Positions 6,001 through 63,295 of a stretch of DNA of 64,000 bases are shown in pieces. Location of the stretch: assembly GCF_947305105.1 (NCBI RefSeq), contig NZ_CAMZCS010000003.1, positions 1 to 64,000 on the forward strand, read 5' to 3'. The notes under the pieces were generated by a model. That model had not been told where the DNA came from. It was given only the letters and a program-made list of their open reading frames with translations, and searched no databases. Position 1 is the stretch's first letter; each line of letters starts with the position of its first letter. The DNA is from an uncultured Fibrobacter sp. Its GTDB lineage: Bacteria; Fibrobacterota; Fibrobacteria; Fibrobacterales; Fibrobacteraceae. A program made the translations under genes and the position numbers.

Positions 6001-6720
6001 CTTGAGCGCATTGATGAAATCGCTGACTTTGTTTTTGCCGGTTTTGGTAAAACTGAGGTCGGAATACTTTTCCAAGGTGGCCAAATTATCGGCAATTTCT
6101 TTGTTGCTTAACAGGTCGGCAAAATTTTCCGGGATTGTTTCGAATGGACTTTCTTCGGCGTTGTCGAGGCCGATGGTTTCCTTCCCGTCGGCGGTTTCTC
6201 CTTTGTACATGTTGATTGCCGAGGAGAGCCTATCCGTGAGCGATTCTTCGAGCGAGTCTGCTGCCGGAGCGTTTTGCAGAATCGTCTGGTAGAGTTTGTT
6301 GCTAGGCCATTTGTCGCGTGCCCAAGCGCTTATCATCGCCTTTACTTCTTTGTCGTCGACCATGGCGAGGTCGAATGGACGCCCCGCTTCGTAGGCGTAT
6401 TCCTTCAGTGCTTTTTGGCAGAAGGAATGGATTGTGAAAATGGCGGCATTGTCAACATCGCGCAGGGCTTTCTCGAATTTCTCGGCGGTAATGCGATCGG
6501 TCCCTTCGGCATCGAGGACTTCTTCCATCTTTTTACGGATGCGGTCTCTCAGTTCGCCTGCTGCTTTTTCGGTGTAGGTGACGATGAGGATTTTCTTGAG
6601 CGGGCAGCCTTCATCAACAAGCTGGGCCACAACCTGTTGGATGGTGTAAGTTTTGCCCGTTCCGGCAGAAGCTTCGATGAACAGGTTTTTACGGGGGTCG
6701 ATGATTTTTTCAATACTCAT
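3037..6720 (-). CDS. recB: Exodeoxyribonuclease V beta subunit RecB
   Basis: Start taken at 6720 (MSIEKIIDP), where ATGA overlaps the recC stop; a longer reading frame to 6798 would run into recC. 1227 residues. The N-terminal UvrD-like helicase has Walker A EASAGTGKTYT at residues 17-27 and further SF1A motifs (DEFQDTN, VGDPKQSIY, TIHASKGLEFPVV). The C-terminal RecB-type nuclease shows GFIDLVF followed by IVDWKSD, the D and D-x-K catalytic positions of the PD-(D/E)XK fold. It is the 3'-5' helicase and the nuclease of RecBCD. The middle gene of the operon. Confidence 0.95.
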   Translation of the reverse strand: MSIEKIIDPRKNLFIEASAGTGKTYTIQQVVAQLVDEGCPLKKILIVTYTEKAAGELRDRIRKKMEEVLDAEGTDRITAEKFEKALRDVDNAAIFTIHSFCQKALKEYAYEAGRPFDLAMVDDKEVKAMISAWARDKWPSNKLYQTILQNAPAADSLEESLTDRLSSAINMYKGETADGKETIGLDNAEESPFETIPENFADLLSNKEIADNLATLEKYSDLSFTKTGKNKVSDFINALKEWTNGKALFNGKTFSTTKTIEAWPDEAYNAFLFFKNFKDKFNDLPNTILQAQIQKFLYSQIKPLFNEWQKFKNENKEQSFNDMILSVHSAVLKKGENGAESELCNRLREQYRYAIIDEFQDTNQLQWDIFKEIFLKANNHSIFVVGDPKQSIYSFQGADVNVYHKATQEIGNRKDLEHNYRSTNSVIEACNNLFECKDFFGNSVEFKRSYAPGNKPGDNPKAKALQKPDAKFYDAKTDSWDDIAPFWISENSVNSTNFAQTCVEKIIDCCTFVDSKEGKRTKLRVFNKNPKNSEDIYRNVTFKDFAVLARSRSEMENIETCMKLAGVPFTRYKDSNLFYGRECAEWISLFKAINATDFSAWNRRILNEVLITDFFAVALSDVESEFFDDPFSKPRQMICHWKELASERRFAEMQESIYAESEVEKRLSDLSKLQEFTKLRQIGNYAINYLYNHSCTLDDLIRHLQNLSISSGDADDQDSNLVAKGSDFDAVQVMTIHASKGLEFPVVISVAGFKQLNKNTDGPYLYHESDSIHLGYGQNAKNARQAEELEEWSRLFYVDFTRASSILVLPRYANWYDEGDTPKEDFRFLANSLKSFCSDEKNENLFEIMGTAKEWDIPTERLLKSNIQDNILATAKELLGEQSEEGLDAESKQKEHIQALQKEVARLGIMQHSYSTLAGKKESSLSIDEEANLDKEGSAEANYYAGEDIGPDASQIEAEIKYPRGSKIGNALHEIFELSKFKEIGLSHENAESMYGSAELSMLVEETFKKQSLPIWDHKDEWTRHTLDIVWNTLNASLPAIEAGHRSGASFKLTSLDDNSRKAEVQFNLNATTDDNGEASEYLQSICKGFIDLVFMRHDTQGQLRFSIVDWKSDVMADGDYSPASIQKKVDEDYSVQRVLYSYCLIKWLKQFYGAGNSGNSNTPLTESEIYDKFFGGMYYVFLRGCKAGTENGIYAHTWENFDALQKSYSNIRKLMRKRKETVEDEQ

Positions 6721-9700
6721 CTTTTGGCCTCCGTATTCTGTGGCGCACCGATTTCTATGCGGAACAAATCTTTTTGCCTTTTGGCTTCGGTGAACCATGC
6801 TCCCGATTCACCGTTAAAATCGTTTTGCGGGTCGAACCCTGTGTCTTTTCGCTTGTCGAGCAGGTGGCGCTTTTCGAAATAGGCCCAGGCGTTGCTCAGT
6901 TTTTGGGTGTAGTCGGCGAAGTTTTCTACAGTCTCGTCAACCATGTCGATGGGGACGGCCTTGGAATATTTCTTTTGGAATGCCTTGTCGTAAAGTGCGG
7001 AGAGTGTTTCTCGTGCCTGCTTGGGTGTCATGCGGACCTTTGCTCTGCTGGGCTCGTGCTCCTTGACGCTGTAAATGGAAATGTCTACGGATTCGGCTTC
7101 GTGAGAATCTTTTTGCGCAATCAGGGCGAGGGCGGCCACATACGGGCCTGTGTATTTGCTGTTCTTGAAATACTTTTGGCCTGCTCTGCCCCTCATTTTT
7201 GAGGTCGTGATGCTCGTAATCTTGTTGCGCTCGCCGTTGCACCAGTCAAGGGCTCCCAATAGAGTCCACCGCGTTCCATCGGGTTGTACAATCGGGAGTT
7301 CTATTTTGTCTTTATATGTCCAGTTTTCGGTTTGGCTTGCCGGAGAATCTGGGAATTCTGCCATTTGCTCCAACAATGCGTTTTTGCGACGTTCGGCAAC
7401 CTTCCACAATTTTTCTCCATATTGCCCGTCGGGAATTCTGCCGCCCAATTCAAGGTTTTTACGGAGTGCGTCGAGGTCTTGCTTGTTCCCGGTAATGGCT
7501 GCGGCCACCATGTTTTTCATGAGGGAACTTTGTTCAAGGCGGTCAAAGTCAATGGGCTCGAAAACTTCGTCGTCCAAATGGGCCGTGTCTTCGTCCATTT
7601 GCATCATTTGCGAGACGCGGAATTCGATGGGGTCGTCCAAGAAACATTTTAGCTGGTACAAGCTGACGCGTCCTGGGCATTTGTCGATAGAGCCCGGCAG
7701 ATTGCCGTAGCCAGAAGTAGAATCTCCGTGGGCCACTCTCTTATTGTAAACGGACTTGTTTCGGAATTCTTTGGAGGTGAACAACTCGCTGTAGGGGCGT
7801 TTCTCGTCGAGCGGAATTTCTTGCTGCTTCCATAGCTTTTCGGCGAGTAATTTTGCCTCCATCGCAGAGATGTCTTTGCCAATGGCCTTGAAACTCTGCT
7901 TGATGGCAATCTTGAGGAAATTCCTGATGTCGTTTACAACGGAGGAAGGATAGAGTTCTTCGTCTTTGACAATATTTTGGTTCACGTAGCTGATGTGGAA
8001 ACTTTCTTTTGTACACATCAACTGGCACAAAAATGCGTAACGGCGTTTGGCGATGGGGGAGTCGTCGCCGGGCCAAGGGGCTACGGCTTTGCGTAAATCC
8101 AGTGTGTTCTGCGTCTTGCTGCCGGGGAAACTTGTGGAATCCGCCCCGATAAAGAACAAATGCTTTACAGGGATAATTCTGTTGGGGATGAATTTGGAGA
8201 AAGTAATCCCGTTGACAAAAAGGTTCCCGCAACTGTATTCGGAACTTTCGGCGGCACCGCAAAGCGTTTGCGAAATGCAGGCCCACGAAATGTATGGAGC
8301 TCCAGCATCAAATTGGATGCGGAGATTTTCGATAGCTGCTGTCACGTTCTGGAAAACGATGGTTTCGCCTGCAAAGCCCTCCGGCGGGTTCGGCATGGCG
8401 ACCCAGTTGTTCAGGAAATTCACGATTTTGTCAAGTACGGCGGGCGTCACGGCGGGCTCGTTCTTTGCAAGCGCTATCCATTCGCCGAGTTCTTCGATGC
8501 CGTCGGCAAAGCGGCTCAGTGCCGTACTGTTTGCGCTCATCATGTCGGCGTAGGGGAGGCATTCTCCATCGCCAATGTCGATGGTGTGCGTGCTGAATCG
8601 CGATGCAAGAATCCGGCGCAGATTTTTTCCCCAGTCGTCGCTTTTTGTGCGTGTGCGGAAGGTGCTTGTGTTCCTGACCCATGTTTCCCAGGCGCTCACG
8701 TTGTCGTCGGTGATGCGGCGGGTATTTTGCACGACAGGGTTGCGGATTAGGCTGAAGAATGCGGGACGGTTCAGGCTTCCGGCTTGCTGTACTTTAAAAA
8801 GTGCTTCGAGTGCTTCGGCCGTGAGTGAACTTTTTGCGGGCGAATCGACAATCGAAAACGGAATATCCCTTTCGGAACTCTGGTCAAAAGCTTGATAGAT
8901 AGCGGTGCGGTAGTCGTCCAGGCAGGGCGAGAAAACGAGAATGTCGCTGATGCGGTTCACCGGATTGCCTTCAGCGTCTTTTTCGGCGAGCAGCTTGCAG
9001 ATTTGCGTATGGAGCGCGTCCATCTCGCGTTCCCTTGTCGGGGCGGCGGTGATAGTAAAGCTGTTGTCTTGCGGTGATTCCGAGGATTCGTCTTCGGGCA
9101 GGCTGTCGAGCAAGCTTGGCAATTCGTTTTTGCGGCTTGCAACCATGTTTTGCACCTTGTGCAAGAGTGTGTCCATGGGAATCGCTTCACCTTCTCCAGA
9201 ATCAGCATCTCCGGCGAATTCAAAATCGTAATCGGCGGCTTGGCACCACAATTTGATATTGTCGCGTCCTGATTTTCCCCAGTAACACAGGAGTGCATTC
9301 TCGGAGGAGGAATCTACACCTTGTTCGGAATCGTCTTCTTCGGGGTCGGCTGATTCGTCGAGGTGTGTGCGCAAGCGGTCGCGGATGCTTTCCGGGATGG
9401 GTCCCGATTCGCCTTGCCATTCGCCGTTTCGTGAAAGCCATTTGCGGTGAATGTCTCCGCACGGCGTGCCCGCATCTTCCCAGAATTCCATGCACGGGTT
9501 CTGTATGTAGGCGTAGACTTCGTGTTTCTCGGCAAACTTTTGCAAAATGACGCGGTAGAACTGCCCCATGCCCGTAAGCCCAAAGATGAACACAGGCAGG
9601 GGCCCGTCTTGACCCATAAACTGTTCGCAGTGGAATTGCCCATCGTGGTTGTCCATGCAGTCTTTGAACAGGAAGGGGATAGTCAGGTACGTTGTATTGA

Positions 9701-10385
9701 ATTCTTGCGGATGGTTTTCGTTTTTCCGCTGGTTCATGGCGTCGAATGCGCGGGTCAATAGCGAAGGCTTGTCCCCGTGCTGGTGGAAAACCTTGGAGTA
9801 CAGCGTGCGCTGCCATTTTTCGCGGTCGCCCCCGTCAAAGAAATCTCGCAGGTTGCCTTGTTCCCAATGGTCAAGAATTCCTTCGGCGAGGTCTCCGGCT
9901 CCACCTTTCCGGATAAAACCCGTCGGCCTTGAGGTCTCGTATTCCAAAAAGAGCGATGCCATCTTCCCGCAAAGGTCAAAGAGGTGCTGTTCGTCCAGTT
10001 TGCCATCGGTTTCCAAGTAGCGGACAACTTCGTCTCCGAGCAGGTGATAGTTGTGCTTTTCGGCCTTGGCGTCTTCTTCGCTTACATCGTTATTGCCGTA
10101 GAGGTATGCCCAGATAACGTTGCGGAGCAGGTCGGCATTCAGTTTCTTTTTCGTGTTGTCGTCGGGGCAGAGAATCTTGAGCAGGAACTTGTCTATCATC
10201 ATGGAATTCAAGTTCGCGAGCGTCCCGCACTTTTTGACCCAGTGCAGTCTGAACCACTGTTCCAGTTTTGGGTCCGGAAAAATCACCACGGGTGTCTGGA
10301 ACGGGTTTCCCCAGGAACCCTTGACGGCCTCGATGAGTTCGTCGGCAAGGTCTTCTAGGTTCAGGGAAAATTTCAGGTGCAGCAT
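6717..10385 (-). CDS. recC: Exodeoxyribonuclease V gamma subunit RecC
   Basis: 1222 residues, in the size range of RecC. RecC is an inactivated helicase-like scaffold that holds the Chi-recognition channel. The N-terminus (MLHLKFSLNLEDLADELI, then VIFPDPKLEQWFRLHW) and the central VKHLFFIGADSTSFPG segment match the RecC pattern. It is the promoter-proximal gene; recB and recD follow with 4-base overlaps, which fits production of an equimolar complex. The ATG at 10385 lies in a 36-base gap from the neighbouring sensor gene, so the operon promoter may lie within or before that gene. Confidence 0.93.
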   Translation of the reverse strand: MLHLKFSLNLEDLADELIEAVKGSWGNPFQTPVVIFPDPKLEQWFRLHWVKKCGTLANLNSMMIDKFLLKILCPDDNTKKKLNADLLRNVIWAYLYGNNDVSEEDAKAEKHNYHLLGDEVVRYLETDGKLDEQHLFDLCGKMASLFLEYETSRPTGFIRKGGAGDLAEGILDHWEQGNLRDFFDGGDREKWQRTLYSKVFHQHGDKPSLLTRAFDAMNQRKNENHPQEFNTTYLTIPFLFKDCMDNHDGQFHCEQFMGQDGPLPVFIFGLTGMGQFYRVILQKFAEKHEVYAYIQNPCMEFWEDAGTPCGDIHRKWLSRNGEWQGESGPIPESIRDRLRTHLDESADPEEDDSEQGVDSSSENALLCYWGKSGRDNIKLWCQAADYDFEFAGDADSGEGEAIPMDTLLHKVQNMVASRKNELPSLLDSLPEDESSESPQDNSFTITAAPTREREMDALHTQICKLLAEKDAEGNPVNRISDILVFSPCLDDYRTAIYQAFDQSSERDIPFSIVDSPAKSSLTAEALEALFKVQQAGSLNRPAFFSLIRNPVVQNTRRITDDNVSAWETWVRNTSTFRTRTKSDDWGKNLRRILASRFSTHTIDIGDGECLPYADMMSANSTALSRFADGIEELGEWIALAKNEPAVTPAVLDKIVNFLNNWVAMPNPPEGFAGETIVFQNVTAAIENLRIQFDAGAPYISWACISQTLCGAAESSEYSCGNLFVNGITFSKFIPNRIIPVKHLFFIGADSTSFPGSKTQNTLDLRKAVAPWPGDDSPIAKRRYAFLCQLMCTKESFHISYVNQNIVKDEELYPSSVVNDIRNFLKIAIKQSFKAIGKDISAMEAKLLAEKLWKQQEIPLDEKRPYSELFTSKEFRNKSVYNKRVAHGDSTSGYGNLPGSIDKCPGRVSLYQLKCFLDDPIEFRVSQMMQMDEDTAHLDDEVFEPIDFDRLEQSSLMKNMVAAAITGNKQDLDALRKNLELGGRIPDGQYGEKLWKVAERRKNALLEQMAEFPDSPASQTENWTYKDKIELPIVQPDGTRWTLLGALDWCNGERNKITSITTSKMRGRAGQKYFKNSKYTGPYVAALALIAQKDSHEAESVDISIYSVKEHEPSRAKVRMTPKQARETLSALYDKAFQKKYSKAVPIDMVDETVENFADYTQKLSNAWAYFEKRHLLDKRKDTGFDPQNDFNGESGAWFTEAKRQKDLFRIEIGAPQNTEAKR

Positions 10386-51760: not shown

Positions 51761-51790
51761 ACCCCCTCGAATTCGAGGGGTTTAAATTCA
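51761..51790. repeat. Direct repeat flanking the RhuM gene, left copy
   Basis: ACCCCCTCGAATTCGAGGGG followed by TTTAAATTCA. The core CCCCTCGAATTCGAGGGG is a perfect 18-base palindrome. A copy with two changes lies at 53021-53050. It may also serve as terminator for the genes on both sides. Confidence 0.75.
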
Positions 51791-52762
51791 CCGCCCTTTC
51801 ATGCTCTCCTGGATTTTCTCGATGACTTCTGCGGGAGTCACGAAGTCCAGAACGCTGAACGCAGTCATCTCGTTGCCCATATCCTTGAACGAGGCCCCGA
51901 AGTGATACACCTTGTCGTCGACGAGCAAAAAGCGGTCGTGAATCGTGCGCATTGTCTTTAAATCCAGGCCGGGATATTGCTTTTTGTGCAAATCCGCAGC
52001 CGCCCTGAACTCGGGAGTGATACGCGCTGAATAAATAGCCGCCTGCACGCCCTTCGCACGCATCGCTGCGAATTTCAGCACCTCAATGGTGGCGAACGGG
52101 TCGATGAACACCACGGAACGCTTGGCCGATTTCACGAGGTCTGCAATCAGCACAAACCCGTCGAAACGAGTTCCTGTTGCGAGAATGCCGCCGGTTGGCG
52201 CCTGCGCCGCATTCACGAAGAAATCTATTCGCTGCTCGACCGCGGAAAGGCGGGAATCCTGTTCGGCGACAGACTTCCGGACATCCGCGATTTCTGCGCC
52301 CTGACTTTCGATGAGCTGCCGCTGTTCATGCAGACGGTCCGCAATCTGCAAATCCGTCGCAATCTTCCGCTGGTTCACGGCATAGCCCTTGAGCATGTAG
52401 TCTTTAAGGACGTGATTTGCCCACTGGCGAAAACGCGTGCCAGCAATAGATTTAACGCGATAGCCGACAGAGATGATTACGTCAAGGTTGTACAGGACGA
52501 CCTCAGAAATCTGCGTTTTCCCTTTAATTGCGCCATGGGGAGTGGTATGTGCAAAATTTGCACATACCACTTTTGAATCCAGTTCGCCCTCCTTGAATAC
52601 GTTTTTGATATGCTTTGCGATGACGGAACGTTCTCTTTCGAACAGCATGGACATCTGCGCCTGCGTAAGCCACACTGTCTCGTTCTCCACGCGCACCTCC
52701 AGCCGCACTTCTCCCTCCGGCTGGTAGAGCACGATTTCGCCTTTTTCTTCGTTTTTCGACAT
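51788..52762 (-). CDS. RhuM family protein with PLD-like C-terminal region
   Basis: 324 residues, ribosome site AAAAGGAG. The N-terminal RhuM pattern reads VRVENETVWLTQAQMSMLFE, SVIAKHIKNVFKEGELD, KGKTQISEVVLYNLDVIISV, and FRQWANHVLKDYMLKGYAVN. A coiled coil follows (QLIESQGAEIADVRKSVAEQ) and then a C-terminal region like that of the ORF6N protein at 22913: SVVFIDPFATIEVLKFA, IHDRFLLVDD, YHFGASFKDMGNE. RhuM proteins are of unknown function, found in pathogenicity islands and phage-like regions. The gene contains a 31-base palindrome, follows an attenuator-like leader and is framed by direct repeats. Confidence 0.85.
   Translation of the reverse strand: MSKNEEKGEIVLYQPEGEVRLEVRVENETVWLTQAQMSMLFERERSVIAKHIKNVFKEGELDSKVVCANFAHTTPHGAIKGKTQISEVVLYNLDVIISVGYRVKSIAGTRFRQWANHVLKDYMLKGYAVNQRKIATDLQIADRLHEQRQLIESQGAEIADVRKSVAEQDSRLSAVEQRIDFFVNAAQAPTGGILATGTRFDGFVLIADLVKSAKRSVVFIDPFATIEVLKFAAMRAKGVQAAIYSARITPEFRAAADLHKKQYPGLDLKTMRTIHDRFLLVDDKVYHFGASFKDMGNEMTAFSVLDFVTPAEVIEKIQESMKGR
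52541..52571. repeat. 31-base perfect palindrome inside the RhuM gene
   Basis: Arms AGTGGTATGTGCAAA and its exact complement around one base. It encodes the conserved VCANFAHTT stretch, so part of the symmetry is set by the protein, yet the 15 paired positions include synonymous sites. Confidence 0.75.
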
Positions 52763-52941: not shown

Positions 52942-52995
52942 AGGTTATAGAAATGCCAACTTGGAATCACGACTGCGGTTCCATAATTCGGATTG

Positions 52996-53020
52996 AACTG
53001 TCGCAAAATTTGCGACAGTT
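52996..53020. repeat. GCAAAATTTGC-core palindrome
   Basis: Arms AACTGTCGCAAA and complement around one base, perfect over 25 bases. Directly adjoins the right direct repeat. Confidence 0.7.
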
Positions 53021-53050
53021 ACCCCCTCGAATTCGAGAGGTTTAAAATCA
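53021..53050. repeat. Direct repeat flanking the RhuM gene, right copy
   Basis: ACCCCCTCGAATTCGAGAGG followed by TTTAAAATCA; 28 of 30 bases as at 51761-51790, same orientation, exactly 1260 bases away. Confidence 0.75.
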
Positions 53051-53060
53051 TAAATGGAAA

Positions 53061-53087
53061 AGTAATGTGCAAAATTTGCACATTACT
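53061..53087. repeat. GCAAAATTTGC-core palindrome
   Basis: Arms AGTAATGTGCAAA and complement around one base, perfect over 27 bases. 40 bases upstream of the methyltransferase promoter zone. Confidence 0.7.
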
Positions 53088-53126
53088 ATTACCCATATGT
53101 TCCAAAACGGAACACGTGCCTTTCTC

Positions 53127-53159
53127 TGTCACAATTTGTCACTCCGCCGGATCTATATT
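53127..53159 (+). promoter_or_regulatory. Operator-like motif and -10 box of the first methyltransferase
   Basis: TGTCACAATTTGTCA (53127-53141), then TATATT (53154-53159), which ends seven bases before the start codon. The second methyltransferase has the same arrangement. Transcription would start at or next to the ATG. Confidence 0.5.
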
Positions 53160-53166
53160 TCTGCGC

Positions 53167-54120
53167 ATGAAATCACTCGCAAACACCATCTACTCCTGTT
53201 TCAAGGACAAGGGCGAATTCTCGCTCAAGGACGCCTATTCCGAAAATTCCGACAAGCCCAAGGAAACCGTCCGCGCGCGCATCTACGACAACCTCGGCGT
53301 AAAATTCGAGCGCGTCGCCAAGGGCCTGTACAAGACAATCGAGGGCGACGAAAGCTGCGTCGTGATAGAAGGCGACGGCCGCGACCTCTCCATGCTCGGG
53401 GACGCCTCCATCGACTGCATCCTGACCGACCACCCGTGGCTAGACAAGAAGTCCAACAAGGGCGGCGACCGCAACTTCGCCACGTACGACTGCTTCAGGT
53501 ACACCCTTGACGACTTCAGGGAAAAAGCCCGCGTGCTCAAGGACGGCTGCTTCCTCGTCGAAATCCTCCCCGCCGAAAACGAGAACAACTACGATTACCT
53601 CTACCAGATAAAGAAATACGCCGAACAGTGCGGGCTGCTCTACTACTCGAAAGTCACCTGGAAAAAGGGGAACTTTGTCAGCAATACCGGGCGCAAGTCC
53701 AAGAACACCCAAGACGTGATGATATTCTCGAAAGGCACGGCGCGCAGCCTGCGCATCGACGCCAAGAAGACAAAAGACACCGGGACGCCCCAGTACATGA
53801 GCGGCACCGCGCAGATGCTCCCCGCCATGTTCGACATCCCGCCCGTCGCAAGGAAGAACAAGATACACCAGAGCGAACTCCCGCTGACCCTGTGCGAAAA
53901 AATCCTCCAGTTCGTGACCAGGCAGGGCGAAACCGTGCTTGACTCCTTCGCCGGCAGCGGCGTCGTGGGGGAAGCCGCACTGAATTTGAAACGGAACTGC
54001 ATCCTGATAGAACTCGCCCACAGGAACATCCTCAAAATCAGGGACCGGCTCGCAGGCAACCCCTTCTTCCGAGAAGCATTCTGGAAAGCAAGCCCGCCCC
54101 TTGGCAACCTGAACGGATAA
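53167..54120 (+). CDS. DNA methyltransferase with HARE-HTH-like N-terminus
   Basis: 317 residues from ATG 53167. Residues 1-58 form a winged helix like HARE-HTH (SLANTIYSCFKDKGEFSLKD, VKFERVAKGLYKT). The rest is an N6-adenine/N4-cytosine methylase with motif order IV-to-I (beta class): motif IV is CILTDHPWLD near residue 88, DHPW in place of DPPY or SPPW; motif I is DSFAGSGVVG near 260. It should modify DNA with S-adenosylmethionine; the target base and site are unknown. GC-rich, host-like codons. A near-identical but AT-rich paralogue lies at 61612. No nuclease gene adjoins this copy. Confidence 0.85.
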   Translation: MKSLANTIYSCFKDKGEFSLKDAYSENSDKPKETVRARIYDNLGVKFERVAKGLYKTIEGDESCVVIEGDGRDLSMLGDASIDCILTDHPWLDKKSNKGGDRNFATYDCFRYTLDDFREKARVLKDGCFLVEILPAENENNYDYLYQIKKYAEQCGLLYYSKVTWKKGNFVSNTGRKSKNTQDVMIFSKGTARSLRIDAKKTKDTGTPQYMSGTAQMLPAMFDIPPVARKNKIHQSELPLTLCEKILQFVTRQGETVLDSFAGSGVVGEAALNLKRNCILIELAHRNILKIRDRLAGNPFFREAFWKASPPLGNLNG

Positions 54121-54148: not shown

Positions 54149-54197
54149 TGTCAAGTAATCCTTGACAACTCAACTCCTCAATAATTTTGAGGAGTTG
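54149..54197. other. Two adjacent hairpins between methyltransferase and helicase genes
   Basis: TGTCAAG/CTTGACA with a 5-base loop (54149-54167), then CAACTCCTCA/TGAGGAGTTG with a 7-base loop (54171-54197), both perfect. No T-run follows, so these are not clear terminators. They mark the point where base composition changes. Confidence 0.6.
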
Positions 54198-54276
54198 CCA
54201 CAAACGGTGTGATAACTTATACAATTTGGCATTCACAACACCTTTTGAGGCGCAATTTTATATAGTTTTCACGTCA

Positions 54277-57200
54277 GTGAGCATTGTTTTTCTTGATATT
54301 GAGGTTTCTACATCCAGCAACAAGATTATGGATCTTGGTGCGGTTAACGACCAAGACTCCACTTTTCATAATTCAATCCAGGGTGACTTTCTGAATTTTG
54401 TGAAAGATGCCGAATTCATCGGTGGTCACAACATTCTAAATCATGATTTAAAATATTTGGCGCATTTGGATTTGCGGAAAAAGAAGGTGATTGACACTCT
54501 TTATTTGTCGCCTTTGATGTTCCCAATGAGGCCAAGTCACAAACTGCTGAAAGACGACAAGATCCTTAGTGACGCTCTGAACAACCCCTTGCTTGATGCG
54601 CAAAAGTCAAAAGGCCTCTTTTATGATGAGGTTAACGCCTTCAAGGCGTTGGATAACGATTTAAAAGAAATCTATTTGAACCTTTTGAAGGGAACAGCGG
54701 AATTTAAGGGCTTTTTTGAATTCCTGGGATATTCTGTTTCGACGAAAAAGTTTTTAGGCATTTTCCAGAACGGTTCTGAATCTAAAAATACAGCAAACCT
54801 TATCAAGAAACGTTTTGAAGGTTTGATTTGCGAAAACGCCGACATAGATACGTTTGTCACAGACCGCCCCATAGAACTAGCATACGCCTTGGCAGTAATC
54901 AATTTAAAAGACAAGCGTTCCATAACGCCGGCCTGGGTTCTGAAGAATTACCCATACATAGAAAACATTCTTTTCTTGTTGCGCAATAAGCCTTGCCATA
55001 AGAAATGCGCCTATTGCGAAGGCAAGCTTGACGTTAGGAAAAAACTCAAAACGTTTTTCGGCTACGATAATTTCAGAACGTATGATGGTGAACCGCTACA
55101 GGAGCAGGCGGCCGCAGCTGCGGTAAACAACGATTCCCTGCTTGCAATCTTCCCGACAGGTGGCGGCAAATCGATTACGTTCCAATTGCCCGCTTTAATG
55201 GCTGGTGAAAACTACAAGGGATTGACGGTTGTCATTTCTCCTTTGCAGTCCTTGATGAAAGACCAGGTGGACAACCTGAATAAAAAGGGAATTGTGGATG
55301 CCGTTACCATAAACGGTTTGTTGGATCCAATTGAGAGGGCTGAATCCGTAGAACGAGTGGAATCGGGTTTAGCGTCGCTCCTGTATATTTCACCGGAGTC
55401 TTTGCGCTCCAAGACCATAGAAAAACTGTTGCTTTCAAGGCAAATCGCACGTTTTGTGATCGATGAAGCGCACTGTTTTTCTAGCTGGGGCCATGATTTC
55501 CGTGTCGATTACCTTTATATAGGTGACTTCATCAGAAAAATTCAGGAACAAAAGATAGGTTCCAATAGAATTCCTGTTTCTTGCTTTACGGCTACGGCAA
55601 AGCAGAAGGTGGTTCAAGACATCTGCGATTATTTCAAGCGGAAATTGGATCTTGATTTAAAGATTTTTGCAACCAAGGCGACTCGAGCCAATTTGACTTA
55701 TCATGTCATCTACCAAGAGGATGATGACCAGAAATATAAGACCTTGAGGTCCCTGATTGAGCAGAAGAATTGCCCCACGATCGTCTATGTTTCTAGGACA
55801 AAGACCACGGCGGTTCTTGCCGAGAAACTGAACCAGGATGGTTTTGTTGCGCGCGCATTCAACGGCAAGATGGACAGCCGTGAAAAAGTCGAAAACCAGA
55901 ATGCCTTTATCAACAATCAGGTGCAGATTATTGTTGCCACGTCGGCTTTTGGCATGGGCGTTGACAAGGACAATGTTCAGCTTGTTGTCCATTATGAAAT
56001 TTCCGATTCGCTAGAGAATTATGTTCAGGAAGCTGGCCGTGCAGGGCGAAACCAAAGCCTGGAGGCCGATTGCTACGTTCTTTTCAACGAGAAAGATCTG
56101 GACAAACATTTCTTGTTGTTGAACCAGACAAAACTCAGTTTGAGCGAGATTCAGCAAGTTTGGAAAGCCATCAAGAGTCTTACCAAGAATCGGTCGATCT
56201 TGAAGCGTTCCCCATTGGAAATTGCTCGCGAAGCAGGTTTTGACGACCCCAACGGGGATGTGGAAACTCGTGTCAAGACGGCAATCCTTGCGTTGGAAGA
56301 AGCTGGCTATATTGAGCGTAGGCAAAATTGCCCAAGAGTGTTTGCGACGGGCATAATGGTCCAAAATATGGACGAGGCCCGTAGAAAGATTACGGCTTCG
56401 ACCCTTTTTGACGAGAAGCAGAAAGAAGCCGCTTCTAGAATCATGAGTCTCCTGATTTCCGAAAGGAGCACGTCAAAAGCCGATAGCGATGAAGCAGAAT
56501 CCAGAATCGACTATATTGCCGACATTTTGGGTTTGAAATGTAGCGAAGTCCAAGAGTCCGTTCAGCTATTACGCGCAGAAAACATTCTTGCAGACACCAG
56601 GGATTTGACCGCATATATCAAGAAATCCGAAGGCGAGAATAAGTCGAAGGGAGTCATAAACCGTTTTGGCCAAATGGAAAATCTCCTTCTTTCGAAACTG
56701 GAAACGGGTAAAACCATTTTCAACTTGAAGGAATTGAACGAAGAGGCGATGGCGTCGGGTATCAAAAAATCTAGCGTCAAGGATTTCAAGACAATATTAT
56801 TCTTTTGGATGATCAATAATTTCATCGAGAAGAATTATTATTCTGATGTCAGTACGAAAATAGAATTGAAGGTGCCACTGGACACCTTAAAGAAAGATTT
56901 TGACCACCGTATTCAGTTATCACGGTTTATCGTTGAACATCTGTATCAAACGAATTTGAAAGTAAGGCCAAATCAACGTGAAGAAGCGCTGATTCAATTT
57001 TCCGAAAAGGAATTGTTGGCTGCCTATGAAGACGAGATTTCGCTTTTCACCAAGGAAACGGTCTCTTACAAGGATTTGGAAAGGTCTTTGCTTTATCTTT
57101 CCAAGACGAATTCCCTACAGATAGAAAACGGCTTTTTGGTCTTGTATAATGCTCTTGAAATACACAGAATCGAAAAGAACAATTTGATAAAATATAAAGT

Positions 57201-59121
57201 CGACGACTACGAAAAGCTGAATAATTTCTACAAGATGAAAATGCAGCAGATTCACATCGTTGGCGAATACGCCAACATGATGGTTCGCGATAGCAAGCAG
57301 GCGTTGACTTTTGTGAGCGATTATTTTGCCTTGGAATACAAGATGTTCCTGAAGAAATATTTCAAGGGAAATCGCGAAGACGAAATCAACCACAACATCA
57401 CTCCACAAAAGTATCATGAAATCGTTGACGAGCTTTCGCCGCGGCAGAGAGAAATAATAGAAGATAAGGACAGCCAGTATATAATGGTTGCCGCCGGGCC
57501 AGGTAGCGGAAAAACGCGAGTACTGGTGCATAAACTGGCTTCGCTGATGCTGCTGGAAGATGTAAAGCACGAACAATTGCTGATGCTGACATTTTCACGG
57601 AGTGCCGCAATTGATTTTAAGGAAAAGCTGCGCAAGCTGATTGGAAATGCCGCTGTTTATCTGACCGCGAAGACGTTCCATTCTTATGCCTTTGATTTGC
57701 TTGGAAAGATGGGTGACCTGAACGAATCTGATTCTGTTATCGAAACAGCGGTGCAGATGATTCGCGAGGGGGAAATTGAACAAAGCAAGATAACGAAAAA
57801 AGTCCTTGTCATCGATGAAGCCCAGGATATGGATGAGCACCAGTTTGCTCTTGTCCAAGCGTTGATTGAGCAAAACGAAGACATGCGCGTAATAGCCGTC
57901 GGGGACGATGATCAAAATATTTTTGAAGGGATTCACAAGAAAAATGGTTCCGGTTCTGTAAATTTGAGCAAGTTTACAGAGATCTACAATGCGAAAAAAT
58001 ACGAACTTGTCGAAAACTATCGAAGCATAAAGCCGGTGGTAGATTTCAGCAATCGCTTTGTGCAGGATATCCCGAACCGTTTGAAAGAGAACCCCATCGT
58101 TTCTGTAAGGGAAGGTGTCGGAGCAGTAAGGATTCGAAGGTTCGCTTCTACGAGCCTGGAATACCCGGTATTGAACCATCTGAAGAAATATCCTCCTCTC
58201 GGGACAGTGGGCGTATTGACCCAGACCAACGATGATGCGTTAAAGGTCATGGCACTTTTGAATCATGAAAAGATAAAGGCGAAGTTAATCCAAGATAGCG
58301 ATGGATTTGCCTTGCACGAACTGATAGAATTCAGAAGTTTCTTGAAGTGGGTCCAAAAGGAAAATGAACCGATTATCAGTACGGAAGATTGGAACCTTGC
58401 CGTTGAAAAGCTGAAAGAGAAATACCAAAAGAGTTCCATACTTGACATTTGCTTGCGAGCCCTTGACGTTTACAAGAGCCAGAACGACCGTCTTTATCAA
58501 AACGACTTCAAACTATTCTTGATGGAATCCAAAATTTCGGACTTTGAAAGAGGAACGAAGAAAGAAGTTGTTGTATCGACTATTCACAAAGCCAAAGGAC
58601 GTGAATTCGATAGAGTTTATGTGATGGTGAAAGACCAACGAATGAACACGGAGGAAGGAAGACGTGTTCTGTATGTTGCGTTCACTCGTGCGAAGAATCA
58701 ATTGTACGTTTTCCATTGTTGCCCCTTCTTGGAAGAGTATGCGCCCGAGAAACTAATAGATAAAGCCGAGTATCCAGAACCGGCAGAAATCATTTGCCAG
58801 TTCGGGCACAAAAATTTGTGGCTTGATTATTTCTATGGCGAAGCATCGGGTGAAGGCCCGGAATTGAAGAAAAGGGTTTTCGCACTATGTGCGGGAATGC
58901 CGTTGCGATTTAGGAACGGTTGCCTGTATGATTCTTCTTCATCCAAAAATGCGATTGCCGTTTTGTCGAAGGACGCAAAAGCAAAAATAGCGCACCTAGA
59001 AGAACTGGGCTATGTCGTGAAAAAAGTCAAAATCCGTTACATAGTCGCTTGGAAAAACAAAGAACGCGAAGATGAGTGCCCGATTATTCTGCCAGAAATA
59101 GAACTGGAAAGAAGAGGGTAG
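54277..59121 (+). CDS. Exonuclease-RecQ-UvrD fusion helicase
   Basis: 1614 residues if the GTG at 54277 is the start (TTG codons upstream are alternatives, no good ribosome site). Residues 1-130 look like a DEDD 3'-5' exonuclease (IVFLDIEVST, IGGHNILNHDLKYL, then NNPLLDA with Asn where His is usual). Residues 250-900 are a RecQ helicase: Walker A FPTGGGKS near 292, DEAH in VIDEAHCFSSWGHDFR near 395, ATSAFGMGVDKDN and YVQEAGRAGR. Residues 1050-1560 are a UvrD/Rep helicase: AAGPGSGKTR near 1073, VIDEAQDMD near 1178, VGDDDQNIFEG, HKAKGREFDRV and YVAFTRAKNQL. DNA unwinding and end degradation are likely; defence is inference from the neighbourhood. Confidence 0.88.
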   Translation: MSIVFLDIEVSTSSNKIMDLGAVNDQDSTFHNSIQGDFLNFVKDAEFIGGHNILNHDLKYLAHLDLRKKKVIDTLYLSPLMFPMRPSHKLLKDDKILSDALNNPLLDAQKSKGLFYDEVNAFKALDNDLKEIYLNLLKGTAEFKGFFEFLGYSVSTKKFLGIFQNGSESKNTANLIKKRFEGLICENADIDTFVTDRPIELAYALAVINLKDKRSITPAWVLKNYPYIENILFLLRNKPCHKKCAYCEGKLDVRKKLKTFFGYDNFRTYDGEPLQEQAAAAAVNNDSLLAIFPTGGGKSITFQLPALMAGENYKGLTVVISPLQSLMKDQVDNLNKKGIVDAVTINGLLDPIERAESVERVESGLASLLYISPESLRSKTIEKLLLSRQIARFVIDEAHCFSSWGHDFRVDYLYIGDFIRKIQEQKIGSNRIPVSCFTATAKQKVVQDICDYFKRKLDLDLKIFATKATRANLTYHVIYQEDDDQKYKTLRSLIEQKNCPTIVYVSRTKTTAVLAEKLNQDGFVARAFNGKMDSREKVENQNAFINNQVQIIVATSAFGMGVDKDNVQLVVHYEISDSLENYVQEAGRAGRNQSLEADCYVLFNEKDLDKHFLLLNQTKLSLSEIQQVWKAIKSLTKNRSILKRSPLEIAREAGFDDPNGDVETRVKTAILALEEAGYIERRQNCPRVFATGIMVQNMDEARRKITASTLFDEKQKEAASRIMSLLISERSTSKADSDEAESRIDYIADILGLKCSEVQESVQLLRAENILADTRDLTAYIKKSEGENKSKGVINRFGQMENLLLSKLETGKTIFNLKELNEEAMASGIKKSSVKDFKTILFFWMINNFIEKNYYSDVSTKIELKVPLDTLKKDFDHRIQLSRFIVEHLYQTNLKVRPNQREEALIQFSEKELLAAYEDEISLFTKETVSYKDLERSLLYLSKTNSLQIENGFLVLYNALEIHRIEKNNLIKYKVDDYEKLNNFYKMKMQQIHIVGEYANMMVRDSKQALTFVSDYFALEYKMFLKKYFKGNREDEINHNITPQKYHEIVDELSPRQREIIEDKDSQYIMVAAGPGSGKTRVLVHKLASLMLLEDVKHEQLLMLTFSRSAAIDFKEKLRKLIGNAAVYLTAKTFHSYAFDLLGKMGDLNESDSVIETAVQMIREGEIEQSKITKKVLVIDEAQDMDEHQFALVQALIEQNEDMRVIAVGDDDQNIFEGIHKKNGSGSVNLSKFTEIYNAKKYELVENYRSIKPVVDFSNRFVQDIPNRLKENPIVSVREGVGAVRIRRFASTSLEYPVLNHLKKYPPLGTVGVLTQTNDDALKVMALLNHEKIKAKLIQDSDGFALHELIEFRSFLKWVQKENEPIISTEDWNLAVEKLKEKYQKSSILDICLRALDVYKSQNDRLYQNDFKLFLMESKISDFERGTKKEVVVSTIHKAKGREFDRVYVMVKDQRMNTEEGRRVLYVAFTRAKNQLYVFHCCPFLEEYAPEKLIDKAEYPEPAEIICQFGHKNLWLDYFYGEASGEGPELKKRVFALCAGMPLRFRNGCLYDSSSSKNAIAVLSKDAKAKIAHLEELGYVVKKVKIRYIVAWKNKEREDECPIILPEIELERRG

Positions 59122-59187: not shown

Positions 59188-60132
59188 TTAGGCTTTATGT
59201 CTTTTTCCTGAGCGCAGCAATTGGTAAAATTCATTTTTTTCATTACCCCTAGATATATACTCATCATAGAGATAATCTGTTAACAAAGAAATAATCTCAC
59301 GATAATATTGTGTTGCTTGAGCTTTTTCTGGCCAGCCATCATCTTTTTTGCTTTGAAAACGTAACGCATCTTTTATCAGATCTCGGTTTTGACCGGAAAT
59401 GAACGAAATACGGCTTTGTATATCGTTGTATGCAGATAATGGCGAATAATTATAAAAATTACGAGTTTGCGAAGGAAATGTTTCTCCATATGTTTTCACA
59501 TATTCATTCAAAGTAGCATATATAGCCCTTTCATCAGCATCGGCAAATCTATATATCTCTTTTTTTACTATATCGGGCAATACCTTCCATAAAGCCTCAT
59601 GCGTATTGTCTTTTCTGTGCACAAAAGAAACGACAATTTGATTATCGTCGTCAGATTCATCCATTTCTGCCCAAAAGTAATAATTCCCTTTATAAAAACG
59701 AATCAGATTATCGCCAGACAACGTTTGATTTATTAGATTTTCTATTTCATTCGCGTTATTTTCGTCAACAAAAACAAAGCCTCTATGAAGGAAAAGGAGT
59801 AAAATAAATGATGAAAAAAATAAATCATAATACACCGTCACAAATTTCCAATTGAATGGTCTCTTCAAAGCGTCTATACACTCATGCTGACGCATCCTCT
59901 TTATTTGGAAAAGTGACACCTCAGTAATCAGCATTTTGTAGAATTCTTCTTTAAGGAAGGTTATCTTTGTTGATTCAGAATCCTTTTCAAATTTTTTCGC
60001 ATGTTTTTTGATTAATTCAATTATTGTCCAAAAATGAGCTTTTTTTGGTGTGACTGATGTGCCTACTAGGGGCAACAAAAATCTATTTCTTATATTTAAA
60101 AAACCTTGGCCATTCAGATATATACTACTCAA
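59188..60132 (-). CDS. Unknown 314-aa protein paired with a DGQHR protein
   Basis: 314 residues, starting by ATGA overlap with the DGQHR gene. No known motif. Helical and charged with many aromatic residues; one hydrophobic stretch LFFSSFILLLFLHRGFVFV near residue 105 could be a buried helix or strand rather than a membrane span. The C-terminus is basic (LLRSGKRHKA). The tight coupling implies that it works with the DGQHR protein. Very AT-rich codons. No function is proposed. Confidence 0.6.
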   Translation of the reverse strand: MSSIYLNGQGFLNIRNRFLLPLVGTSVTPKKAHFWTIIELIKKHAKKFEKDSESTKITFLKEEFYKMLITEVSLFQIKRMRQHECIDALKRPFNWKFVTVYYDLFFSSFILLLFLHRGFVFVDENNANEIENLINQTLSGDNLIRFYKGNYYFWAEMDESDDDNQIVVSFVHRKDNTHEALWKVLPDIVKKEIYRFADADERAIYATLNEYVKTYGETFPSQTRNFYNYSPLSAYNDIQSRISFISGQNRDLIKDALRFQSKKDDGWPEKAQATQYYREIISLLTDYLYDEYISRGNEKNEFYQLLRSGKRHKA

Positions 60133-61130
60133 AATATATCATCCTCGTCAATAGAGCTATATTTAGAATACTCCCTCAATTGAGCTTTCATGTCTGCAAC
60201 CATCTTTGTGACGGTTGCATTACTGGAACCCACATACGAATCATATGATAAATTAGATATCGGAGTCAGAACATCTTTTAAATTTTTCACCTTGATGTTT
60301 TGATACTTATCAAAAGCTTTGTCTATACACTCATTAAAAATTGCAAAAACAGCCTTAAATAAAGAGCCATTCGTTAATTTCACTTTCTCGTTATGGCAAC
60401 TATTCAACACTTGGTCCGCGGCTTCTAAATAATTTTTTACAGCCTTGCAAACAAGATTAACATCTTTTTCTTTAAAATAACCACTTTCTAGTATATTTTT
60501 GGTAGCTTCATTAAAAGTCAATCTTGATATGTAGCCAACTCTACTTTTATTTGCGGAAAAACGCCCTGCCAGTACACTATTCTTGTCCAAATAGTCAAAA
60601 AGAGTTCGCTGTTTTTCTTCTAAAGACGTTTCTTTTCCAGCAATGTTTTTTATATCCAGCAGTAAAGTTGCTGGGACTCCCTTTTGATTTGTATTAATGT
60701 CAATGAAAAGATTCACTTCTGCAGTAATATTTAAATTATTGAAAATTACAACAGGAACTGCGTAATCCTCTTTTGCTAAAAAATAACCAAATAATCTATG
60801 TTGTCCATCCAAAACAAGAAACGAATTTTTACTAATGCTAAAAGTCAGTTCTGATTTCTTTTTATCATAAGATATATTTGAGATATTCTGGGCACTTAGG
60901 ATCAATGAAGACGGTATGCATTTTTTTCCACTATCTAGATATGCAGCAATATTTTTCGCTCTATTTTCATTCAATGTTCTCTGGAAGCCTTTTCGTGGGT
61001 CGGATTCTCTTCGCGAGACAAAACAAACCTCCTTTAATATTGAGCTTGACATGACGGCAGAATAAAAAACGATTCCATTTTGACTACAAGGAATTGCTTT
61101 AATTGATTGACTTTTTTGTTTAGACATCAT
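60129..61130 (-). CDS. DGQHR domain protein (DndB/DpdB-like)
   Basis: 333 residues from ATG 61130 (second ATG three bases on), chosen because GAGGCGA precedes it; a longer frame begins at 61178. The DGQHR signature is present in FLVLDGQHRLFGYFLA, followed by IDINTNQKGVPATLLLDIKN. This fold belongs to DndB, which controls phosphorothioate modification genes, and DpdB of the deazaguanine DNA system. No dndCDE or dpdA genes are visible in the window, so the system it serves is unknown. AT-rich and followed by an overlapping partner gene. Confidence 0.85.
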   Translation of the reverse strand: MMSKQKSQSIKAIPCSQNGIVFYSAVMSSSILKEVCFVSRRESDPRKGFQRTLNENRAKNIAAYLDSGKKCIPSSLILSAQNISNISYDKKKSELTFSISKNSFLVLDGQHRLFGYFLAKEDYAVPVVIFNNLNITAEVNLFIDINTNQKGVPATLLLDIKNIAGKETSLEEKQRTLFDYLDKNSVLAGRFSANKSRVGYISRLTFNEATKNILESGYFKEKDVNLVCKAVKNYLEAADQVLNSCHNEKVKLTNGSLFKAVFAIFNECIDKAFDKYQNIKVKNLKDVLTPISNLSYDSYVGSSNATVTKMVADMKAQLREYSKYSSIDEDDIF

Positions 61131-61569
61131 TCGCCTCTGTTGGACATTGTTTGTTTTATTATTAAGTAATAATAACATTAATCTTTATCTTTTTCAACTG
61201 CAAATTAGTATAAAGATATTTTTCATTGTTTAATATGTCCCAGAAAAAACGTAATTTTTATAATTTACCCAAAATTACATTTAGTAGAGGTAGAGCCGAA
61301 CCATCGGATAATATTTGTTAGTTGAGCCGATGCTCTGTCGAAGGGAGTCCTCCCTATAAAGATCCAGAAAATCGCCAATGTTGAAGGATTGTTCAATAAG
61401 AAGAATTGCTATAGCATGATAATCGGCAAAATTGAGTCGATTGATTCAGCAATTAAGCAGGGGCTCTGGAGCTTCCTTGTGGTAAGATCTCCGGGCGACT
61501 TCAGAGTGAGGAGGATGTTCGGAAATCAGAAAAAATTTTTCCCGATTTCGGCGGCTTTTATTTTTCATA
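61131..61569. other. Gene-poor divergent region with a possible gene remnant
   Basis: About 440 bases between divergent genes. The left part is very AT-rich. An imperfect hairpin (CATCGG/CCGATG with AGAG/CTCT) lies at about 61291-61336. From 61326 an open frame without ATG or ribosome site (KIESIDSAIKQGLWSFLVV, RSPGDFRVRRMFGNQKKF) runs into the methyltransferase start; its GC content is higher than its surroundings, so it may be a decayed gene end. Weak evidence. Confidence 0.35.
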
Positions 61570-61611: not shown

Positions 61612-62560
61612 ATGAAGTCTCTCGCAAATTCTATTTATTCCTGTTTCAAGAAAAAAGGTGAATTCTCGCTCAAGGAAGCCTATTCCAAAAACTCCGACAA
61701 GCCTAAGGAAACTGTTCGCGCAAGAATTTATGACAATCTCGGAATAAAATTCGAACGTGTCGCTAAAGGTCTATACAAAACCATCGATGGCGATGAGAGC
61801 TGTGTGTTAATAGAAGGTGATGGACGAAATCTAAGTATGCTTGATGATGCTTCTATCGACTGCATCTTGACGGACCATCCTTGGTTGGATAAAAAATCAA
61901 ACAAGGGTGGAGACCGAAATTTTGCCACATACGACTGTTTCAAATACAATCTGGATGATTTTAAGGAAAAAGCACGCGTCCTCAAGGACGGCTGTTTTCT
62001 TGTTGAAATTCTCCCTGCTGAAAACGAGAACAATTATGATTACCTCTATCAAATCAAGAAGTATGCAGAGCAGTGTGGATTACTCTATTATTCTAAAGTC
62101 ACATGGAAGAAGGGAAATTTTGTCAGTAACACGGGTCGCAAATCTAAAAATACTCAAGACGTGATGATTTTTTCGAAGGGTAAGGCTCGAAACCTTCGAA
62201 TTGACGTGAAAAAGACAAAAGAAACTGGTGAAATCCACCATATGAGCGGAACTACGCAGATGCTTCCAACGATGTTCGATATTCCACCAGTTGGAAAGGG
62301 CGACAAAATTCACCAAAGTGAACTGCCACTAACCTTGTGTGAAAAAATCCTTCAATTTGTGACAAAACAGGGTGAAATAGTGTTAGATTCCTTCGCTGGA
62401 AGTGGAGTTGTGGGGGGATGCCGCATTAAATTTGAAACGAAATTGCATCCTGATAGAACATGCGCATCGGAATATTGTTAAAATTAGGGGTAGGCTTGCT
62501 GGCAACCTTTTTTCAAAGAGATGTTCTGGCATGCGAAAACATGAATTAAACATCAAGTAA
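61612..62560 (+). pseudogene. Second DNA methyltransferase, frameshifted at a G6 tract
   Basis: Residues 1-268 align with the protein at 53167 with about 28 differences, including the HARE-HTH-like head and TDHPW. After GSGVVG the frame shifts at GTGGGGGGATG (six G, 62412-62417; the other copy has five) and the protein ends at 62481. Removing one G restores DAALNLKRNCILIEHAHRN and a normal end at 62560. The shift falls just after motif I, so the C-terminal strand of the SAM-binding fold is lost. Codons are AT-rich, unlike copy 1. Either a fresh mutation, a sequencing error, or a switchable tract. Confidence 0.8.
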
Positions 62561-62575
62561 TAAAAGGGTTCGTAC

Positions 62576-63295
62576 ATGAAAGCAATTTCTCAGACCGAGC
62601 AAGTTATTGCAGCGTTGGAAAAAGAAGGCGGGTTCGCGACTTTTAAACGGTTAAATGAAATTGTTGATTTTTCTAAATGGAAAACGAAAACTCCGGAAGC
62701 TAGTGTTCGAAGAATTGTTCAAGACAGCGACCAAATTTTCAAGATTAGACCTGGTTTATGGGCTCTGGAAAAATATCGAAAGGAGGTCTTGTTACGTCTT
62801 GATTTGAAAATTGGTGACAAAAAAAGTGAACAATCATTTGACCATGGATATTATCAGGGATTGTTGGTTGAAATAGGAAAGTTTAAGAAACTGACCACAT
62901 ATGTTCCTGCACAGGATAAAAATCGCAAGTTTCTTGGGAAAAAGCTAGCGGAAGTTACTGATACTACCGATATTCCGCATTTTACCTATGACACGATTCT
63001 AAGAAAGGCCAAAACGGTTGATGTAATATGGTTCAATGAAAGAAATATGCCGTCGTTTTTTTATGAAGTAGAACATACAACTGATATAAAGAACTCTCTT
63101 TCCAAATTTTACGAATTGCAAGATTTTTCGGCGGAGTTCTTTATTGTTGCAGCGGCAACGAGAAAAAATGAGTTTGATGACAAATTGAATGCTTCTATTT
63201 TTAATTCCATAAAGGAACGAGTGAATTTTTTGGATTATGACAAAGTCGTTAAACGACATGAGGGTTTGACGATCGCTAAAAATGCGTCTTGGTAA
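62576..63295 (+). CDS. Predicted restriction-type nuclease with HARE-HTH-like N-terminus
   Basis: 239 residues, starting 15 bases after the restored methyltransferase stop. Residues 1-65 look like HARE-HTH (TEQVIAALEKEGGFATFKRL, VRRIVQ, IFKIRPGLWAL), the same kind of domain as in the methylase. The C-terminal part has KTVDVIWF and then FFYEVEHTTDIKNSL, an EVEHT motif found in predicted PD-(D/E)XK-like nucleases that take part in restriction. Paired with the methyltransferase this gives a candidate modification-restriction module. Catalysis is inferred; no Lys of the classical D-ExK is certain. Confidence 0.65.
   Translation: MKAISQTEQVIAALEKEGGFATFKRLNEIVDFSKWKTKTPEASVRRIVQDSDQIFKIRPGLWALEKYRKEVLLRLDLKIGDKKSEQSFDHGYYQGLLVEIGKFKKLTTYVPAQDKNRKFLGKKLAEVTDTTDIPHFTYDTILRKAKTVDVIWFNERNMPSFFYEVEHTTDIKNSLSKFYELQDFSAEFFIVAAATRKNEFDDKLNASIFNSIKERVNFLDYDKVVKRHEGLTIAKNASW

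Follow-up and report, generated by a model that had tools for sequence, protein, structure and literature searches.

A mobile DEDD-RecQ-UvrD fusion gene with an atypical exonuclease site in Fibrobacter and other bacteria

The window analyzed here, a 64,000-nucleotide stretch of a contig from an uncultured Fibrobacter sp., contains a single uninterrupted open frame on the forward strand (54187..59121) that encodes 1644 residues when read from a TTG codon at 54187. A GTG codon at 54277, 30 codons into the frame and the start adopted in an earlier note on this DNA, would yield a protein of 1614 residues. The GTG appears to be the more likely start because homologues of the protein begin near residue 30 of the 1644-residue frame and because the upstream TTG falls inside a perfect inverted repeat. 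Residue numbers are counted throughout from TTG 54187, and 30 is to be subtracted for the GTG start. The earlier proposal that DEDD-like, RecQ and UvrD modules share one polypeptide is borne out by the open frame, by profile matches and by predicted structure models. The features of the locus are as follows.

52993..54120 (+): N6_N4 methyltransferase gene upstream of the fusion gene, kept only in L033, a 98% identical locus
54171..54197 (+): perfect 11-bp inverted repeat with a 5-base loop (arms 54171-54181 and 54187-54197), located between the fusion gene and its upstream methyltransferase gene
54277..59121 (+): DEDD-RecQ-UvrD fusion gene, likely GTG start, open frame from TTG 54187; 1614 or 1644 aa
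54283..54681 (+): DEDD-type exonuclease fold, residues about 33-165
54295, 54301, 54445 and 54595 (+): codons of D37, E39, D87 and D137, the metal-binding carboxylates
54991..55017 (+): conserved C-x3-C-x2-C knuckle (C270, C274, C277), just N-terminal of RecQ
55039..56151 (+): RecQ helicase core, residues about 285-655, with TGGGKS at 324, DEAHC at 426 and QEAGRAGR at 614
56164..57394 (+): mostly helical middle region, residues about 660-1070, with a conserved DYF patch
57409..58767 (+): compact UvrD-like SF1 helicase core, residues about 1075-1527, with AGPGSGKT at 1103, DEAQD at 1210, GDDDQ at 1239 and TRAK at 1500
58768..59118 (+): C-terminal domain, predicted alpha/beta, residues 1528-1644

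The nuclease module, comprising the N-terminal 130 or so residues, gave no match above cut-off in a Pfam search. A profile built from 15 relatives matched RNase_T (PF00929) proteins with a probability of 97.9% (E 5e-13) and brought the acidic motifs into register; three unrelated profiles used as controls reached 0.1-1.6%. The PHROG DNA-polymerase and polymerase-exonuclease families match the module at 5e-5 and 6e-4, and among PDB sequences the profile matches 9l8b (E 0.0016) and, weakly, T7 DNA polymerase (E 0.17). RecQ chains filled the lists of a PDB fold search with the DEDD-containing model, making the missing exonucleases there uninformative, and a profile comparison with PF13482 was invalid, having one usable row in an apparently wrong reading frame.

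An alignment of 89 proteins (the window, 29 related genomes, 3 plasmid records and 56 of 80 survey loci) includes 88 with the N-terminus. All 88 share D37, E39, D87 and D137, and D103, H118 and K122 do not vary among them either. The fold and the D-E-D-D carboxylates thus place the fusion protein in the DEDD 3'-5' exonuclease superfamily. Neither subfamily residue is present: five positions before the last Asp, the DEDDh His occurs in none of the 88 (Asn in 69, Ser in 18, Phe in 1), and four positions before it, the DEDDy Tyr is likewise absent from all 88 (Asn in 76, Asp in 12). In the protein encoded in the window, N132 and N133 stand where the His or Tyr general base would be expected. The alignment therefore upholds one half of the earlier description of this nuclease as complete, namely its four carboxylates, and contradicts the other, as the His/Tyr base is missing in every sequence. 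Such a pattern is a departure fixed across the family rather than local decay. Because the carboxylates are kept but the base is missing, the module is best judged atypical, neither complete nor plainly dead, and because of that same missing base the exonuclease may be weak or dead. DEDD-bearing stretches without helicases also occur, one in a 346-aa frame (G071:C7:6196-7005) and one of about 200 aa adjoining an AbiEii gene on a Sulfurospirillum plasmid (L204, 7986-8585); these may be either remnants or stand-alone forms.

Between the nuclease and the first motor, the knuckle cysteines are nearly invariant in the alignment (C270 in 89/89, C274 in 88/88 and C277 in 88/89) and may form a metal site, possibly Zn-like. 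The RecQ core is recognized by Pfam (DEAD 303-478, 4.8e-31; Helicase_C 515-622, 6.3e-21) and by the NCBIfam RecQ model TIGR00614 (268 bits against a cut-off of 219.8). Two structure models were predicted, with pLDDT values of 82.5 and 80.2, and comparison of a predicted model with the RecQ structure 1oyy aligned 346 residues (Z 25.7, rmsd 3.0). The GKS, DEAH, motif VI arginines and fold of the RecQ family are all present, with the motifs found in 88-89 of 89 proteins. An HRDC domain, which is frequent but not obligatory in the family, was not found at the fusion locus (contig C3); HRDC matches in the same genome lie only on contigs C12 and C38, one of them in a 715-aa RecQ frame. Beyond the RecQ core, residues 660-1070 gave no Pfam match above cut-off.

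The second motor is recognized by Pfam as UvrD (N-terminal part from 1084, 4.6e-25; UvrD_C 1410-1509, 1.4e-18), and the predicted model aligns 431 residues with the UvrD structure 4c2t (Z 37.8, rmsd 4.7). It possesses the Walker A, DExx/QD, GDxxQ, TH..KG and TRAK motifs and the fold of UvrD/Rep SF1A helicases. Of UvrD chains 645-658 residues long, the core aligns with only about 431-440, which makes the customary 1B/2B insertions look reduced in part. The nucleotide-binding and arginine motifs of both helicases are essentially invariant across the 89 aligned proteins. As to the loss of catalytic residues in the nuclease and both ATPases, named in the earlier note as grounds for abandoning its idea, the ATPases are intact in 89 of 89.

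The helicases of the RecQ and UvrD families and the DEDD exonucleases all work 3'->5', while RecBCD has motors of opposite polarity and a PD-(D/E)XK nuclease. The suggestion that the modules have opposite polarities, and with it the analogy to RecBCD, fails because the three module families all run 3'->5'; moreover, Pfam showed no RecB-type nuclease domain in the fusion, nor any RecC- or RecD-type subunit. A normal recCBD operon does lie elsewhere in the window, as previously noted, with recC at 9144-10382, recB at 3127-6690 and recD at 1124-2653, all on the reverse strand. What the fusion has in common with RecBCD/AddAB is the combination of two motors and a nuclease for DNA ends, its UvrD core being structurally similar to AddA and RecB; it differs in its DEDD fold, its same-polarity families, its single chain and its patchy distribution. 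If both motors on a chain have the same polarity, they would travel on opposite strands in diverging directions or take turns at an end. RqlH, a RecQ-like relative, is reported to work 3' to 5' (PMC4670107).

The distribution of the fusion is broad and uneven. A scan with the DEDD domain alone, one genome per species, detected at least 571 relatives, and the best 80 of these, which were kept, belong mainly to Bacteroidota and Bacillota but also to Fibrobacterota and others. Six of the 80 survey loci were missed by the motif pattern used to locate frames. Among the 74 located loci (from the best 80 of at least 571), 56 have frames longer than 1400 aa; of the 18 shorter ones, 6 are cut by a contig end and 12 are internal, mostly in metagenome assemblies in which errors are possible. 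Within the genus of the window, the DEDD domain occurs in 25 of 80 genomes (15 of the 40 high-quality ones), 24 of the 26 DEDD matches belong to frames of 1473 aa or more, and the fusions fall into two clades about 36% identical to each other.

Placing the Fibrobacterota on a 54-row tree takes 5 changes, and well-supported branches force at least 4 of these, a result implying that the gene has been transferred between phyla. The tree retained 54 of the 89 rows (less than 80% mutual identity, at least 1500 aa) and is a quick tree without a mixture model, on which two long rows, L063 and L064, are unsure. Plasmid copies are found in eight or more genera (Bacteroides, Aliarcobacter, Thiothrix, Allochromatium, Nostoc, Rhizobium, Sulfitobacter and Cereibacter), where the records label the gene 'RecQ family ATP-dependent DNA helicase'. 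Chromosomal sites are variable, with a hotspot shared by 6 of 30 loci and used by both clades beside a glmS-like gene (609 aa, SIS and glutamine amidotransferase domains). These patterns describe a large family, usually one chain, without a conserved partner, patchily inherited and mobile. The mostly housekeeping contexts that would have spoken against the earlier interpretation did not emerge, since the gene is accessory and mobile by its genus distribution, apparent inter-phylum transfer and plasmid copies; it is also separate from the housekeeping recBCD genes elsewhere in the window.

The modification/restriction surroundings described earlier are confirmed by two N6_N4 methyltransferases in the window. 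An obligate methyltransferase partner was considered and rejected, the upstream gene being kept just in the window and L033 among 30 loci. Downstream of the second methyltransferase, which falls in the same cluster as the 52993 gene, comes a 239-aa protein that weakly matches a type II restriction enzyme (3.9e-5), and the two (61612-63295, +) form a possible RM pair. At 59188-61178 (-), a 314-aa protein without a Pfam, NCBIfam or PADLOC match adjoins a DGQHR/DndB-like protein (TIGR03187, 131 bits; specific Dnd/Dpd models below cut-offs), and a RhuM-family gene at 51788-52762 (-) matches the PADLOC candidate PDC-S05 (9.8e-112).

Across the window and 29 related loci, the fusion is the only general gene, with RhuM/ORF6N-like genes nearby in 9 of the 30; in the 56 full-length survey loci, the most frequent family of neighbours is present in just 8, which amounts to no conserved partner. 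Individual copies nonetheless adjoin defence genes. A PsyrT/PsyrA pair (812 and 314 bits; 4420-7420) lies directly upstream of the fusion gene in L036, a type I restriction enzyme is two genes away in L061, and AbiE pairs are near in some loci. On plasmids, type I RM adjoins the Allochromatium copy and I-D CRISPR genes lie near that of Thiothrix, with HipA, RES/BrnT and ParAB also among the neighbours. Other copies are in unremarkable settings, such as beside DUF4250 and TonB genes in Bacteroides or beside plasmid parAB.

For three hallmark families, 9 of 181 matches fall within 20 kb of a fusion (positions counted by hand) against 1.66 expected, or 6 after shared loci are collapsed (P 0.007). 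This enrichment comes from N6_N4 methylases and AbiEii; type I methylases alone show none (1 of 93 matches against 0.82 expected). The 115 nearest neighbours of the fusion match 240 PADLOC families, compared with 88 families matched by the 116 control neighbours beside ordinary RecQ genes (one of 117 was dropped); these are counts of families rather than genes, and the control is not clean in that some control RecQ genes adjoin type I restriction genes. Such ordinary RecQ genes occur in L160, L161 and L165, the last in the window's own genome (G000:C12), as seen from REase_I matches in 3 control neighbours and N6_Mtase matches on G000:C12 and G034:C39; other RecQ-like genes lie close to N6_Mtase matches on G051:C13, G055:C2 and G064:C77. 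In the broad survey, near and far genes on the same contigs did not differ, with 115 PADLOC families from 133 genes (of 184 candidates) near the fusion and 115 from 123 genes (of 123) far from it. The link of the fusion gene to defence genes is thus modest and suggestive.

Several known systems share parts of this architecture. WRN (Werner), a DEDDy enzyme, likewise carries a 3'->5' DEDD exonuclease fold at the N-terminus of a chain that also has a RecQ core; the fusion differs in lacking the Tyr, in having a second SF1 motor and a putative Zn-like knuckle, and in being bacterial and apparently mobile. GajB of Gabija is a UvrD-like helicase working with a nuclease, and the SF1 core of the fusion matches GajB models at 138 bits; in contrast to Gabija, this core is joined to RecQ and DEDD, and no match to GajA (OLD-type ATPase/nuclease) was seen among seven window neighbours scanned (best 25 families per protein). 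RecQ-type cores also occur in the defence loci of DpdF and PsyrT/RqlH, and that of the fusion matches DpdF at 306 bits and PsyrT at 272 bits, but the generic RecQ model TIGR01389 scores it at 308 bits, equal to the DpdF match, and neither Dpd partners nor a PRTase domain nor a DprA antitoxin belonging to the fusion was found. Membership in Dpd was rejected (NF041063 at 203.5 bits against a cut-off of 550; the DpdB model for a neighbour at 45.7 against 300), as was membership in PsyrTA/RqlHI, as PsyrT matches the helicase core only and no DprA-like match was seen among the seven window neighbours scanned.

DinG of Bacillus subtilis, described as a 3'->5' exonuclease-helicase of replication stress (PMC12525004), is likewise a single bacterial protein in which a DEDD exonuclease is joined to a helicase. 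The DinG helicase is XPD-like in place of RecQ plus UvrD. The nearest concept to the fusion is WRN/DinG plus a UvrD motor. An exonuclease class fused to RecQ has been known since 2014, when cluster F.14 of Majorek et al. grouped the exonuclease-type domains of RecQ ATP-dependent DNA helicases with T7 DNA polymerases (PMC3985635), an affinity shared by the weak T7 match of the fusion profile; the passages on that cluster mention no UvrD module, missing base, distribution or function. A literature search, with subscription papers mostly outside its range, returned no functional study of the three-module fusion. As far as found, it is an uncharacterized variant of the helicase-nuclease fusion with an atypical DEDD site.

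The fusion may represent a mobile, single-gene accessory helicase-nuclease, the likeliest payoff of which would be the degradation or disabling of foreign linear or replicating DNA such as phage or plasmid; this interpretation is given slightly less than an even chance. A defence role is suggested by the modules on one chain, the kept motifs, the patchiness, the plasmid copies, the lack of a fixed partner and the defence-gene neighbours, while the missing His/Tyr base, the lack of type I methylase enrichment, the equal near and far PADLOC counts and the unremarkable settings argue against it. The protein would load on single-stranded or resected DNA ends, where the RecQ core would unwind 3'->5', as its family does. 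The UvrD-like core, whose family also runs 3'->5', might cooperate by working the complementary strand or stripping bound proteins, and the DEDD domain would trim the exposed 3' end in a metal-dependent manner, with catalysis that is probably slow or relies on an unusual general base.

Some plasmid copies adjoin parAB and replication genes or have SSB and ParA genes close by, which would suit a maintenance or recombination enzyme that processes the replication intermediates or recombination ends of its own mobile element rather than foreign DNA. Such an enzyme would combine WRN-like end processing with UvrD/Srs2-like stripping of RecA on plasmids and integrative elements, in keeping with the appearance of WRN helicase chains when the RecQ part was compared with the PDB and with the replication-stress role of DinG (PMC12525004). 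This explanation is nevertheless rather unlikely, in that many chromosomal copies lie at variable sites with no replication genes recognized nearby, most genomes of the genus lack the gene, and several copies are broken, as fits a dispensable trait. Comparably doubtful is the notion that the DEDD domain only binds or docks 3' ends in a metal-dependent way, leaving in effect a double helicase. Replacement of the base in 88 of 88 sequences is what such a domain would show, yet if the domain were dead, some lineages should have lost metal ligands, and the four carboxylates are invariant together with D103, H118 and K122.

Two further explanations are very improbable. The fusion could be an ordinary genome-maintenance RecQ with extra domains, as its score over the TIGR00614 cut-off would allow, but the same genome has recBCD as well as HRDC on two other contigs (one in the 715-aa RecQ frame), and the accessory distribution and surroundings of the fusion already disfavour this origin. 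Alternatively, it could be a RecQ-type toxin of a toxin-antitoxin-like defence, as in PsyrT/RqlH, restrained by an unlinked factor; the RecQ part matches PADLOC PsyrT at 1.9e-81, and RqlH is described as genotoxic without RqlI (PMC4670107). Against this stand the lack of a PRTase domain in the Pfam results, the lack of any gene conserved beside the fusion and the similar scores of ordinary RecQ models.

Returning to foreign DNA, a bolder form of that reading can be put forward tentatively, at well below even confidence: the fusion would be a very widespread, overlooked solo defence enzyme, in which a His-less DEDD class and two 3'->5' motors chew and unwind invading DNA without a partner, and which is exchanged between phyla at hotspots and on plasmids. 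If this is true, genes labelled 'RecQ family ATP-dependent DNA helicase' would encode a self-contained helicase-nuclease in hundreds of genomes. A single cloned gene would then be enough for testing, and its DEDD domain would show whether the exonuclease fold works without the usual histidine or tyrosine.
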